Source: Corallococcus sp. AS-1-6 (lineage in GTDB: Bacteria > Myxococcota > Myxococcia > Myxococcales > Myxococcaceae). Taken from it: 64,000 bases of DNA. This document shows, one piece after another, positions 23,214 through 40,568 of the stretch. The stretch is taken from assembly GCF_020037015.1 (NCBI RefSeq), contig NZ_JAIQDE010000018.1:62001-126000 (forward strand), written 5' to 3'. The notes beneath the pieces are model-generated. The model did no database searches, was not told the origin of the DNA, and was given only the letters and a program-made list of their open reading frames with translations. A program made the position numbers and the translations under genes. Position 1 is the first letter of the stretch. Every line of letters starts with the position of its first letter.

Positions 23214-23936
23214 ATGACCTCGAACGCACTTCCGTCCCTGACCCTGCTGGAGCTCGCCGACCCGGGCCTGCCGGGCATCGAGAGCTATTCGCCCTTCTGC
23301 CTGAAGGTCCACCGGGCCCTGAAGTACGCGGGGCTGCCCTACGCGCGCGGCTGCGCGGACAACCCGGCGATGCACCGCGCGCACAACCCCACCGGACAGG
23401 TGCCGGTGCTGCTGGTGGGAGCGGAGGCGGTGCCGGACTCCACGGCCATCCTCGCGCGCATCCAGCAGTTGGCGCCGGGCCGCATCGACGCGTCGCCGGA
23501 GGCGCTGCTCTGGGAGGAGCTGGCGGACACGTCGCTCAACGGCTTCCTGGTCGCGTCGCGCTGGGCGGATGACCGCAACTGGCCCCGGACGCGCGCCGCG
23601 TTCTTCCACTTCATGCCGGCGCCGGTGCGCGCGGTGGTCCCGACGCTGATCCGCCGCAAGCAGGTGGAGCGCCTGGTGGCGCGCGACGTCTGGCGTGCGG
23701 GGCCGGAGGCCTGCTGGCGCCGGTTCGGGGCGCTGCTGGACCAGTTGGACGCCCGGGCGCCGGAGCAGGGCTTCTGGCTGTCAGGGGCGCTGAGCGTGGC
23801 GGACCTGGCGCTGTTCGGGCAGTTACACAGCCTGCGGACGCCGCTCACGCCCTGGCAGGGGGCGGAGGTGGAGCGGCGCAAGCGGTTGAGCGCGTGGCTC
23901 GGCCGGGTGGACGCGGCGACCCGCACCGCGAGCTGA
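23214..23936 (+). CDS. Glutathione S-transferase family protein
   Basis: The protein has 240 residues. The N-terminal thioredoxin-like domain contains SYSPFCLKVHRALKYAGLPY (Ser/Cys active-site region), the cis-proline motif GQVPVLL and the GSH-binding VPDSTAI. An all-helical C-terminal domain follows with SVADLALFGQL. Glutathione conjugation or reduction is expected; the substrate is unknown. TACGTT (23202-23207) ends 6 nt before ATG 23214. A 6-bp inverted repeat (TGACAG/CTGTCA, 23175-23190) sits where a regulator would overlap the promoter. Confidence 0.85.
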   Translation: MTSNALPSLTLLELADPGLPGIESYSPFCLKVHRALKYAGLPYARGCADNPAMHRAHNPTGQVPVLLVGAEAVPDSTAILARIQQLAPGRIDASPEALLWEELADTSLNGFLVASRWADDRNWPRTRAAFFHFMPAPVRAVVPTLIRRKQVERLVARDVWRAGPEACWRRFGALLDQLDARAPEQGFWLSGALSVADLALFGQLHSLRTPLTPWQGAEVERRKRLSAWLGRVDAATRTAS

Positions 23937-24113
23937 GGGCCGCGAAGGGCGCACACAGGGTCCGGAAGGACTTCGCCGCACGAGCGCCGTGCGCGCGTTT
24001 CCGTCGGATTGCGGAGGATCGTGCGCGCCTGGAAGCACACCATCCAACGATCAAACATTGGACAGCGCCATCGCACGGACGTGCCGGTGAGGACTTCATC
24101 TACGGTTGCGCGC

Positions 24114-24557
24114 ATGAACCCGACCCCGCACACGCCCCCCACTGGCGAACCCGTTCCCCTTCAAGCGACCACGACGGAGTCGCTCGACGCGCTCATCCAG
24201 CGCGTCGACGGCATGTCGGAGGTGGAGCTGGATCACCTCCCGTTGGGGATGATCCAGCTCGACGGGCAGGGCCGGATCCTCAAATTCAACCGGACCGAGG
24301 CCGCGCTGGCGCGCATCCAGGCGAGCGAGCAGATCGGCAAGAATTTCTTCTACGACGTCGCGCCGTGCACGCGCGTGCGGGAGTTCTTCGGCCTGTTCCA
24401 GGAGGGCGTGCGGGCGAAGAAGCTCTACCAGACGTTCGGCTTCGTCTTCCGCTTCGCGCACGGCGCGCGCCACGTGGCCATCACACTGTTCTACAGCGAC
24501 AAGACGAATTCGGTCTGGGTGCTGGTGTCCGACAAGAAGATGCCCGACGCGCGCTGA
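24114..24557 (+). CDS. Photoactive yellow protein (PYP)-like PAS protein
   Basis: The protein has 147 residues from ATG 24114, 7 nt after TACGGT (24101-24106). From residue 36 it aligns without gaps to Halorhodospira PYP: IQLDGQGRIL, then IGKNFFYDVAPCT and FQEGV, and a terminal SVWVLV strand. The chromophore-linking Cys69 equivalent is Cys85 and Glu46 is conserved as Glu62. Tyr42 becomes Phe58, Thr50 becomes Ala66 and Arg52 becomes Ile68. It may bind p-coumarate with altered tuning, or be a PYP-fold sensor with another ligand. No tyrosine ammonia-lyase or coumaroyl-CoA ligase lies in the window. It is a free-standing cytosolic sensor with an N-terminal 35-residue extension. Confidence 0.85.
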   Translation: MNPTPHTPPTGEPVPLQATTTESLDALIQRVDGMSEVELDHLPLGMIQLDGQGRILKFNRTEAALARIQASEQIGKNFFYDVAPCTRVREFFGLFQEGVRAKKLYQTFGFVFRFAHGARHVAITLFYSDKTNSVWVLVSDKKMPDAR

Positions 24558-24638
24558 AGCCGCGTCAGCGCACGAAGCCCGCCACGGGGCTTCCCCTCGG
24601 GTCGAGCCGCACGCTAGGGAGTGGGCCCGGAGGGGTCC

Positions 24639-25889
24639 ATGGCCTTTCGAGTCCCGCTCGCCGTCCTGCTCCTCGCCGTGCTCAGTGCGTGTGCGGCCCC
24701 GAGGGGCAGGGTGCGGCTGGATACAGGCGAAGGTGCCCCCATCGAGTTCAGCCCGGCGTCTCCCGTCCGGGCGGTGACCGTGGGGGAGGGGGCCTTTGAA
24801 CAGGCGCTGACCGGGCTGGTCCTGGTCACGCCGCTGCGCCTCCGGGCTTCGCGGCCAGTCGACTGGGTGCGCGCTTCCCATCCCACGGGCGAAACGGACC
24901 GTGCGTTCGGAGGCTTCTGCGAGCCGGGCCTCCGTCGGAGTGGCTGCATCTCGCTGCTCGAAGACGTGATGGGGCTGAGCGACTGGGACAAGTTCGGCGT
25001 GGCGCTGACGCTGTCCCTCGACCCGCTCAAGGAGAGCATCGCGAGGGCCGTGGAGGAGACCCTGGCGCCCCAGCTCTTCTACGCGGTGATCGCCACGGGG
25101 CTCGTGACCTGGGCGGCGCTGGCCGCCAATCCCGAGCCTGCGTTCACCAAGGCCGCGGCGGTCATCTCCGCGCTGCTGCTGATCTACCTGGGCGCGGAGA
25201 CGTTCCTGGAGCTGATTGACGCGAGTCAGGACCTGAAGCTCGCGACGGATCAGGCCACCACCTGGAAGGAGCTGGATGCGTCCGGCCAGCGCTTCGCCGC
25301 CCGGGTCGGTCCCTCCATCGCACGGGTGATGGTCCTCGCGTTCACGGTCGCGGTGAGCCACGGCATGACCGGTGGCGCCTCGTTGCTGGCGGCCAGGATC
25401 GCGACGCTGCCGAACTTCCCGGGAGGCGCGGCGGTGGCCTCACGTGTCGGCATCAACGTCGCGAGCCTCGAGCAGGTGAGGGCGGTGTCCGTCTCGGGTG
25501 GCATCATCACGCTCGCCCTGCCATCCACGGCGGTCGCCATGGCGGCGAAGACTCCGGCCAGCACCCCGCCAGGAGGGGCGCGTTCCTGGAACTCCTTCAG
25601 CGCCCTCAAGAGGGCCCGAGGACCCGCGGGGCCGGGGAAGCAGTGGCACCACATCGTCGAGCAGACGGACGGCAACGTGCAGCGCTTCGGTCCCCAGGCC
25701 GTGCACAACACCGAGAACGTGATCGCGATTGACGAAGCCGTCCACCAACGGATCAGCGCCTACTACTCGTCGAAGGAAGTCGCTCTCACGGGCCCACAGA
25801 CCATTCGGCAATGGTTAAGCAGCCAGTCCTTTCAGGCGCAACGCGACTTCGGAATAGAGACCCTCATTCGCTTTGGAGCTCTTCCTTGA
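24639..25889 (+). CDS. SitA-like lipoprotein toxin with His-His nuclease-type C-terminus
   Basis: The protein has 416 residues from ATG 24639, which follows a GGAGGGG site. The lipobox is LSAC (Cys18). Hydrophobic helices at about 140-187 and 225-245 may help membrane passage. The C-terminal 80 residues hold GKQWHHIVEQ (His337, His338), FGPQAVHNTENVIAI and HQRISAYYSS, a pattern of HNH/AHH-type toxin nucleases. Myxobacterial SitA lipoproteins are passed between kin by TraA/TraB outer-membrane exchange and kill non-immune partners. The stop overlaps the partner gene. Rare TTA (25815) and ATA (25854) codons in the toxin end suggest an exchanged tip. Confidence 0.82.
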   Translation: MAFRVPLAVLLLAVLSACAAPRGRVRLDTGEGAPIEFSPASPVRAVTVGEGAFEQALTGLVLVTPLRLRASRPVDWVRASHPTGETDRAFGGFCEPGLRRSGCISLLEDVMGLSDWDKFGVALTLSLDPLKESIARAVEETLAPQLFYAVIATGLVTWAALAANPEPAFTKAAAVISALLLIYLGAETFLELIDASQDLKLATDQATTWKELDASGQRFAARVGPSIARVMVLAFTVAVSHGMTGGASLLAARIATLPNFPGGAAVASRVGINVASLEQVRAVSVSGGIITLALPSTAVAMAAKTPASTPPGGARSWNSFSALKRARGPAGPGKQWHHIVEQTDGNVQRFGPQAVHNTENVIAIDEAVHQRISAYYSSKEVALTGPQTIRQWLSSQSFQAQRDFGIETLIRFGALP

Positions 25890-26248
25890 GCACCCGGAAG
25901 TTTCAAAAGGCCAGCATCGAAGAACTCGTCCAGTGGTACGCGGAGGCGTCCATCGCATATGGCCAGTCGCTGGAGGCTGCGGACTCACGGTCCGCCAATC
26001 GCGCCGCCGACAAGATCTCCGCAGCCTATCGGGAGCTTCGGAGCCGTGGCGCGACGTCCCAGCTCCTCCCCCTTCTCCAGAGCGAGAACGAAACCGTCCG
26101 AACGAACGTCGCGGCTCATGCCATGGAGTTTGCTCCCGAGTTCGGTGAGCCGGTACTGCTCTGGATCGAGAAGCGTCCAGGGCGCAATGGGCTCGCTGCG
26201 CATTACGTCCTCAAGGCCTGGCGCGAGGGCACGCTCAAGTTCCCCTGA
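25886..26248 (+). CDS. DUF2019 protein, likely immunity partner
   Basis: The protein has 120 residues. The TTG start at 25886 overlaps the toxin stop (TTGA) and has GGAG 8 nt upstream. The sequence is typical of DUF2019: SIEELVQWYAEASIAYGQ, NRAADKISAAYRELRSRG, then HEAT-like helices and the characteristic ending LKAWREGTLKFP. DUF2019 members often sit next to toxin genes in myxobacteria. The expected role is cytosolic binding and inhibition of the adjacent SitA-like nuclease. The pairing is inferred from overlap and position. Confidence 0.82.
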   Translation: MSTRKFQKASIEELVQWYAEASIAYGQSLEAADSRSANRAADKISAAYRELRSRGATSQLLPLLQSENETVRTNVAAHAMEFAPEFGEPVLLWIEKRPGRNGLAAHYVLKAWREGTLKFP

Positions 26249-38852: not shown

Positions 38853-40568
38853 ATGCCTTTCGACGTGAAGGACATCCTCCGGCAACTGGAAGCCGGCTTC
38901 GCTCCGGAGTCCGGGGCCCCGAAGTGGTGGCAGGAGAGCTGGGAGGATCCGGAAGGGTTCGCCGTGGCGCTCGCGGACGCCCACGCGGGCCGGGGCGTCC
39001 CGCCACCCAAGAGCCGCCCGGGCCAGCAGTACGACTTCTTCCACGATCTCATCGTGCGCCACGTCGCGCTGGAGCGCCCCGCGTTCCGCACGCACCAGCG
39101 CATCCAGGGCTGGCAGGCCCTGGGCTACCGCACGCTGCACGACCTGGCCTCGCGCCGCGCCAGCGAGTGGGCGGACCAGGGCGTGGAGCCGGGCGCGAAG
39201 GTGTGCCTGGTCCACGGCGTGGGGCAGGAGCTGCTCGTGTCGCTGCTGGCCACGCTGAAGCTGGGCGGCTGCTTCACGCTCCTGCCGCCCATGGGCCCGC
39301 GCGCCATGGCCACCCGGCTGGAGTCCCTGACGCCGGACTTCATCGCCGCGGAGCCCCACCAGCTCCCGCTCCTCAAGGGCCACGAGCAGCTCCTGCTCAA
39401 GAGCCAGGGGAGGGGAGCGCCGGGCTTCACGTCCCACACGTACAAGCCCACGGACGTGGTGGGGCTGCTCTTCTCGCCGCTGGTGGATCCGCCGCACACG
39501 CCGGTGCCCCTCACCGCGGAGAACGCGTGGAAGGGCGCCATCGGCGACGGGATGCTCACCTTCGGCCTGTCGCAGGGGGACCTCCTCGCGGCGCCGGACT
39601 TCCCGGTGCTCCAGCACCTGCCGGCGCTCCTCTTCGCCACGCTCCTGCGCGGCGCCACCTACCTGCACCTGGAGATGGCGGACCTGGCGCTCAACCCGGC
39701 CCCGCTCCTGGAGCACCCGCTGCGCGCCCTGGGCGTCACGCCGAAGCTGAGAGACCTGCTCGTGCGCCACCGCGCCAGCCTGCGCAACGTGCAGCACTGG
39801 TTCCGCAGCCCGGAGGAGCCCTTCGACGCCCAGGCGTGGCGGGCGTGGGTGAAGCAGTGCGGCCTCCAGGGCGTGCCGTCCTCCAACGTCCTCATCGACG
39901 CGTCCGTCGGCGGCGCGGTGCTGGTGTCGTCGCGCGGCGTGAACGAGCCGGCCACGGACGTGCACACGGACGTCCTCCCCGTGCCGGGCCGCGCGTGGAC
40001 GCTGAAGGATCCGAACGAGAGCGGGCAGGGCGCCCCCACGGACGTGGGCGTCTTCACGCTGCTGCCGGACAAGGAATACCCGCCGGGTCACGTCCTGCTC
40101 GCGCGGATCCGCCAGCGCTACCACTACGCGGGCACCCTGGGCTTCCGGCACGACGGCCGCCCCTACTCCGCGAAGGAGGTCACCGCCGCGCTGGAGGACC
40201 TGCCGTTCCTCGCGGGCACCAGCGTGGTGCCCGTGTCCACCGGCGGCCTCGCCAGCCACTCCCGCTTCATCCTCCTGGCCTTCACCGGGGCCACGCCTGC
40301 TCCCTCGTCCGGCGAGCAGGAGATCCACCGGCGCATCGAAATGCTGCTGGGCGGGGACTTCCTGCCCGACCGCATCGAGTTCTTTCCGCTCTTTCCCCAC
40401 CGGGTGAAGGGCGCGGTCGACGACGCGTGGTGCGCCTCGCAGTTCTTCACCGGCGCGCTGCACAAGAAGGCGAGGGACCCGATGTTCCAGGCCCTCACCG
40501 CCCTGCGAGGACGGCTGCTGGAAAGCGCCGAGGCTTCAGGCGATGATGATCCGTCGTCAGCGCGCTGA
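38853..40568 (+). CDS. Degenerate ANL (adenylate-forming) enzyme-like protein in the T6SS operon
   Basis: The protein has 571 residues. The overall pattern is that of an acyl-CoA synthetase/AMP ligase: a substrate-entry N-terminus, LASRRASEWADQGVEPGAKV, LLATLKLGGCFTLLPP, DVVGLLFSPL where the P-loop Thr/Ser/Gly-rich motif should be, and near the end VGVFTLLPD, YHYAGTLGFRHDGRPYSAKE. The P-loop lacks its Gly/Thr residues, the TGD motif reads AGT, and the conserved GR-x-K-D and catalytic Lys near the C-terminus are missing. It is probably catalytically inactive. Between a T6SS accessory gene and a PAAR-like gene, it may act as an adaptor for effector loading. The family call is inferred. Confidence 0.6.
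   Translation: MPFDVKDILRQLEAGFAPESGAPKWWQESWEDPEGFAVALADAHAGRGVPPPKSRPGQQYDFFHDLIVRHVALERPAFRTHQRIQGWQALGYRTLHDLASRRASEWADQGVEPGAKVCLVHGVGQELLVSLLATLKLGGCFTLLPPMGPRAMATRLESLTPDFIAAEPHQLPLLKGHEQLLLKSQGRGAPGFTSHTYKPTDVVGLLFSPLVDPPHTPVPLTAENAWKGAIGDGMLTFGLSQGDLLAAPDFPVLQHLPALLFATLLRGATYLHLEMADLALNPAPLLEHPLRALGVTPKLRDLLVRHRASLRNVQHWFRSPEEPFDAQAWRAWVKQCGLQGVPSSNVLIDASVGGAVLVSSRGVNEPATDVHTDVLPVPGRAWTLKDPNESGQGAPTDVGVFTLLPDKEYPPGHVLLARIRQRYHYAGTLGFRHDGRPYSAKEVTAALEDLPFLAGTSVVPVSTGGLASHSRFILLAFTGATPAPSSGEQEIHRRIEMLLGGDFLPDRIEFFPLFPHRVKGAVDDAWCASQFFTGALHKKARDPMFQALTALRGRLLESAEASGDDDPSSAR

Follow-up and report, generated by a model that had tools for sequence, protein, structure and literature searches.

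A likely single-domain photoactive yellow protein with Phe42 and Ala50 in Corallococcus and its Myxococcaceae orthologues

Among bacterial blue-light sensors of its kind, photoactive yellow protein (PYP) has received the most study. Within a 64-kb window (the whole stretch of DNA analysed, 64,000 nucleotides) from the 9.5-Mb genome of Corallococcus, a soil myxobacterium, we find a gene whose product is likely a bona fide single-domain PYP that belongs to a Myxococcaceae-specific orthologous group and works as other PYPs do. We document here its homology, conserved residues, orthology, purifying selection, gene context and predicted fold; the features of the locus are collected in Table 1. The list of open reading frames also offered an upstream TTG start at 24009, but the ATG is favoured because congener sequences agree after the ATG and diverge upstream of it.

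Table 1. Features of the Corallococcus pyp locus, in coordinates of the window; codons are named by Corallococcus residue.
Feature	Position	Strand	Remark
pyp gene, 147-aa single-domain PYP	24114..24557	+	ATG 24114 to TGA 24557
Glutathione S-transferase-like (GST) gene, upstream of pyp	23214..23936	+	neighbour kept in most congeners, not in other genera
Intergenic region before pyp, 177 bp	23937..24113	+
Imperfect inverted repeat CCAACG-ATCAAA-CATTGG	24044-24061		52 bases before pyp start
Phe58 codon (TTC)	24285..24287	+	H. halophila Tyr42
Glu62 codon	24297..24299	+	H. halophila Glu46 (proton donor)
Ala66 codon	24309..24311	+	H. halophila Thr50; change missed by the preliminary description
Ile68 codon	24315..24317	+	H. 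halophila Arg52; family consensus Leu (PMC12826048)
Cys85 codon	24366..24368	+	H. halophila Cys69 (chromophore thioester)

The open reading frame matches the photoactive yellow protein model TIGR02373 with an E value of 2e-27 and a score of 95.8 bits, below the equivalog cut-off of 143.05 bits, which is exceeded in none of 145 genomes of the order; a Vreelandella control reaches 181.4 bits. Sequence matches to PYPs in the PDB range from 7e-21 to 1e-18. The best of them is the Rhodospirillum centenum Ppr-PYP (1MZU, 7e-21), which, unlike the Corallococcus protein, is a PYP-phytochrome-kinase fusion with Tyr42, and 1F9I scores 2.9e-19. Alignment to Halorhodospira halophila PYP (1NWZ/2PHY, clade A) is gapless over residues 17–122 of that protein, with 42 of 106 positions identical (40%). 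An AlphaFold2 model (pLDDT 82.7), used as query in a PDB structure search, retrieved PYPs as its top 40 matches (best E 1.4e-11), other PAS domains appearing from 4e-6. Sequence model, PDB matches and fold thus agree with the preliminary description, which had reported a PYP homologue aligned gap-free through the chromophore loop.

Under the PAS_PYP definition of Xing et al. (2022), the similarity extends over the whole PAS domain, Cys69, on which that paper bases membership of the family, is conserved (C85), and the cysteine is accompanied by at least one of Tyr42 and Glu46, here Glu46 (E62); Tyr42, which is typical but not required by the definition, is replaced by Phe58, and this does not disqualify the protein. 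That a PAS domain of another kind merely resembles a PYP by chance is hardly credible. The TIGR02373 score does fall short of the curated cut-off and Pfam places the protein in the general PAS family, but that model, with its four PYP seeds, itself recovers only ~20% of PYPs (PMC9664959), PYPs come first in both the structure and the sequence searches, far ahead of other PAS domains, and our tree puts the protein among PYPs.

Throughout the domain, the H. halophila position plus 16 gives the Corallococcus position. The two proteins share the single-domain fold, Cys69, Glu46, Phe62, Ala67-Pro68 and Phe96, and eight of the nine published pocket residues are kept (Cys69, Glu46, Ile31, Phe62, Val66, Ala67, Pro68, Phe96), only Tyr42 being different; among 15 further conserved PYP residues 13 are kept, the exceptions being Phe28 (Leu44) and Gly86 (Lys102). 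Unlike the H. halophila protein, that of Corallococcus has Phe for Tyr42, Ala for Thr50, Ile for Arg52, Phe for both Tyr94 and Tyr98, and His for Met100. The alignment confirms all four residues named in the preliminary description (Cys85, Glu62, Phe58 and Ile68), but its picture of an altered pocket stands only as far as Y42F, which is real. By sequence the pocket is a known natural variant and not an unusual one, because Y42F is found in about 9% of natural PYPs (8.9% of 984, PMC12826048; ~9%, PMC9664959) and position 52 is Leu by consensus. The consensus of the 984 PYPs is Ala50 and Leu52, not Thr50 and Arg52 (PMC12826048); Arg52 is no family hallmark, and its replacement, on which the description had also drawn, says little.

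The change at position 50 matters more than that at position 52, because in the H. halophila Y42F mutant the hydrogen bond passes to Thr50 (PMC9664959). Like the Corallococcus protein, this mutant (1F9I) combines Phe42 with unchanged Glu46 and Cys69, but it retains Thr50 where the myxobacterial protein has Ala50. With the hydroxyls of Tyr42 and Thr50 both gone, Glu62 should be the sole remaining hydrogen-bond partner of the phenolate. A natural, fixed pocket of this composition would allow a test of whether Glu46 alone keeps the chromophore ionised, a question so far approached through mutants.

The signature F42/E46/A50/I52/C69/H100 is invariant in 23 orthologues of one myxobacterial family, the Myxococcaceae (Corallococcus, Pyxidicoccus, Hyalangium, Archangium and other genera), although Cys69 was part of the search pattern, so that its presence in every fetched named locus adds no independent support. 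Within Corallococcus the median dN/dS is ~0.14, which indicates purifying selection on pyp, and Phe, Glu and Cys at positions 42, 46 and 69 are kept in 20 of 20 sequences tested. Judged by these comparisons, the F42 group is a stable orthologous group and not a decaying gene. The literature searched yielded no characterised member of it, and we describe the combination F42/A50/I52/H100, specific to this group, from sequences. The same substitution at position 42 occurs, partly within the same phylum, in other natural Phe42 PYPs (~9% of 789–984 homologues; PMC9664959, PMC12826048), with which we group the Stigmatella aurantiaca PYP mentioned in PMC11832031. Myxococcota have been proposed as the place of PYP origin (PMC9664959).

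In a tree of 124 domains the F42 orthologues form one group, whose neighbour is a Tyr42 relative (L003; 83% SH-aLRT). Phe42 needs at least 11 changes on this tree, in which many forks are unresolved, and at least three of these changes are forced by well-supported branches, so that Phe42 probably arose more than once. Among 121 PYP domains, all 36 that have F42 also have Glu46, and all 10 E46Q replacements are on Tyr42; this pairing matches the published rule that Tyr42 and Glu46 are never lost together, as one hydrogen bond must remain (PMC9664959). Some genomes carry the F42 protein plus a second PYP with Tyr42.

For the chromophore, spectrum, photocycle, p-coumarate source and output of the Corallococcus PYP, we infer the following. 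The apo-protein would accept on Cys85 a p-coumaroyl thioester (p-coumaroyl-CoA or an acyl-carrier equivalent), probably borrowed or scavenged; light would isomerise the chromophore, Glu62 would lose its proton, and the protein, now partly unfolded, would signal to a putative partner. Because the hydroxyls of Tyr42 and Thr50 are missing, contact of the phenolate with Glu62 only is predicted to raise the chromophore pKa and to give a red-shifted blue band at ~455–465 nm mixed with a UV-A/violet band at ~350–400 nm. By analogy with characterised proteins, the spectrum is probably red-shifted or split between UV-A and blue, as would befit a dual UV-A/blue sensor and not a protein that has switched ligands. 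For the H. halophila Y42F mutant, absorption at 458 nm (PMC9062252) and an equilibrium with a ~400 nm form (PMC12826048) are on record. Of four Ala50 PYPs with known spectra, three show an additional band in the UV (446/360, 435/375 and 465/358 nm; Table 1 of PMC12826048, whose text names the Ala50 set). The absorption shift that the preliminary description derived from Y42F is, given the mutant's 458 nm, a fair expectation, though it was drawn without regard to the loss of Thr50.

The window holds no gene making or activating p-coumarate: it has no aromatic lyase and only a weak AMP-binding-like open reading frame. This absence had been noted correctly, but it is uninformative because only 5–10% of pyp genes have a tyrosine ammonia-lyase (TAL) nearby and about 30% a 4-coumarate:CoA ligase (pCL) (PMC9664959, PMC12826048); published surveys propose either TAL and pCL genes at other places in such genomes or uptake of p-coumarate from the surroundings. 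As a yardstick for chromophore genes we used the pyp-pCL-TAL operon of Vreelandella utahensis, in which ligase and TAL lie directly downstream of a gene for a H. halophila-type PYP (TIGR02373, 181 bits). Neither gene is near Corallococcus pyp, which in this respect also differs from that of H. halophila with its TAL/pCL operon. The AMP-binding-like frame (38853-40568) encodes a strongly diverged adenylate-forming protein of 571 residues, whose PF00501 score of 28.4 bits narrowly misses the Pfam cut-off. The frame lies within a cluster of type VI secretion genes (VipB sheath, VasE/TssK, IcmF, DUF4280; ~36–56 kb). Given this location and a match to only the N-terminal part of the family, we rejected it as a pCL.

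The whole Corallococcus genome encodes two MIO lyases. One is HutH (TIGR01225, 700 bits), with a Ser-His selectivity motif; the other (C4:162750-164306) is closest, among NCBIfam families, to the BagA/FevW tyrosine ammonia-lyases (423 bits, below cut-off). The selectivity motif of this second lyase is Tyr-His, as against His-Leu in the pyp-linked Vreelandella TAL, and tyrosine is therefore not assured as its substrate. On the same strand, 2–3 kb away, lies an AMP-ligase fused to an ApeI-like dehydratase domain, the genome's closest relative of the PYP-type 4-coumarate:CoA ligase. Among NCBIfam models it matches that of this ligase, TIGR02372, best, with 93.9 bits against a cut-off of 334.7; no match in the genome (94.6 bits) comes near the 284–291 bits of the true pyp-linked ligases of Vreelandella and Allochromatium. 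Two acyl carriers (ACPs), KS, KR, acyltransferases, a thioesterase and an exporter complete an aryl-polyene-like pigment cluster (contig C4, ~155–170 kb), which may supply the PYP chromophore. Our literature search on a link between aryl polyenes and TAL found nothing useful. The preliminary description had named the absence of any biosynthesis gene as an outcome that would tell against it; the genome does hold a candidate lyase and a TIGR02372-like ligase.

Among the F42-group members with flanks examined, none has TAL or pCL within ~9 kb of pyp; the same scan did detect chromophore genes beside pyp in Chromatiaceae, Vreelandella and Desulfobacteraceae. The aryl-polyene-type lyase is present in all 16 Corallococcus genomes, including five that are devoid of pyp, and outside the genus it does not co-occur with pyp (4/13 Phe42-pyp genomes vs 23/67 others, Fisher P = 1.0); we consequently rejected the aryl-polyene lyase cluster as a supply that tracks pyp. 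Nine pyp genomes lack this lyase. One pyp-bearing genome (G078), a single contig rated 100% complete, has HutH as its only MIO enzyme (SH motif; TIGR01225, 677 bits) and no 4-coumarate ligase, its best TIGR02372 match being a 63-bit C-terminal fragment. Since lyase and ligase are missing in some pyp genomes, part of the lineage, to judge from gene content, must draw its chromophore from recruited or promiscuous enzymes or from the environment, or must use something else instead. Only with this gap in the chromophore pathway of pyp-bearing genomes do our results reach a little further than published surveys, and complete pyp genomes without the pathway make the chromophore source directly testable in culturable strains. 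We regard it as unlikely that the F42/A50 group as such is cut off from p-coumarate biosynthesis, with either a different thioester ligand or a role as a scavenger-loaded UV-A/blue dual sensor; if true, this lineage would employ the PYP fold in a so far uncharacterised way.

Two other readings concern the ligand itself. A different ligand, which the preliminary description offered as the alternative to shifted absorption, is neither supported nor contradicted by the analysis. It is quite improbable, in our judgement, that the F42 group has moved to a different thioester-linked ligand, be it a cinnamoyl group of another kind, some other aromatic acyl group or an acyl-CoA signal, and senses something other than blue light via p-coumarate. 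Several pyp genomes, one of them single-contig and complete, have no homologue of a tyrosine-type ammonia-lyase or 4-coumarate ligase, but across the family pyp genes as a rule have no linked TAL or pCL (PMC12826048, PMC9664959), and the part could be played by many CoA ligases and by environmental p-coumarate. The equivalents of Tyr42, Thr50, Arg52, Met100, Tyr94 and Tyr98 are altered together, yet each of these substitutions occurs in other PYPs, eight of nine pocket residues are fixed, and Glu46, needed for proton transfer, is never lost. Divergent arrangement of pyp and a 4HBT acyl-CoA thioesterase gene could hint at an acyl-CoA connection, but the thioesterase adjoins pyp in only some genera.

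Very unlikely as well is a PYP fold with no ligand attached in vivo that takes part in protein-protein or redox signalling via its cysteine. No dedicated chromophore pathway tracks pyp, and p-coumarate binding has been lost in methylobacterial Ppr-PYPs (PMC9664959); the published non-binders, however, had lost Cys69, and the F42 group keeps Cys69, Glu46 and the FF..VAPCT loop under purifying selection. We thus favour a p-coumaroyl-bearing PYP that probably works as others do.

The surroundings of pyp vary within the group. In Corallococcus the gene has the GST-like gene on one side and, on the other, a gene for a SitA5-type polymorphic toxin; in other genera one side holds a gene for an Fe-S assembly protein or an acyl-CoA thioesterase and the opposite side a deoxynucleoside kinase and a GDPD gene, with Ser/Thr kinases a few kb off. 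Across the flanks compared, no signalling-gene neighbour of pyp is conserved throughout the F42 orthologous group. The GST-like gene was rejected as a functional partner, being conserved only within Corallococcus, and the thioesterase, deoxynucleoside kinase, GDPD and Ser/Thr kinase genes were rejected for their inconsistency across the group. Where pyp and the 4HBT acyl-CoA thioesterase gene diverge, in several genera, they lie ~100 bases apart (three loci, among them L085:5048-5566). The inverted repeat upstream of pyp is perfect in three congeners only and absent in other genera; we rejected it as a conserved pyp element, since only few congeners carry it. The SitA5-family toxin gene lies directly downstream of pyp (24621-26248; NF050093, 207.6 bits, above cut-off), and the DUF2019-like gene (weak match) that comes after it is likely a SitI-type immunity partner.

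In a distinct myxobacterial group, a PYP domain with Tyr42 sits within longer frames of ~350–645 codons (six loci), some with extra C-terminal sequence, which in one of them (L009) has a weak PAS match of its own. Another genome of this order has four PYP domains with E < 1e-10 and a fifth, weak match; two of the four outscore all others in the order.
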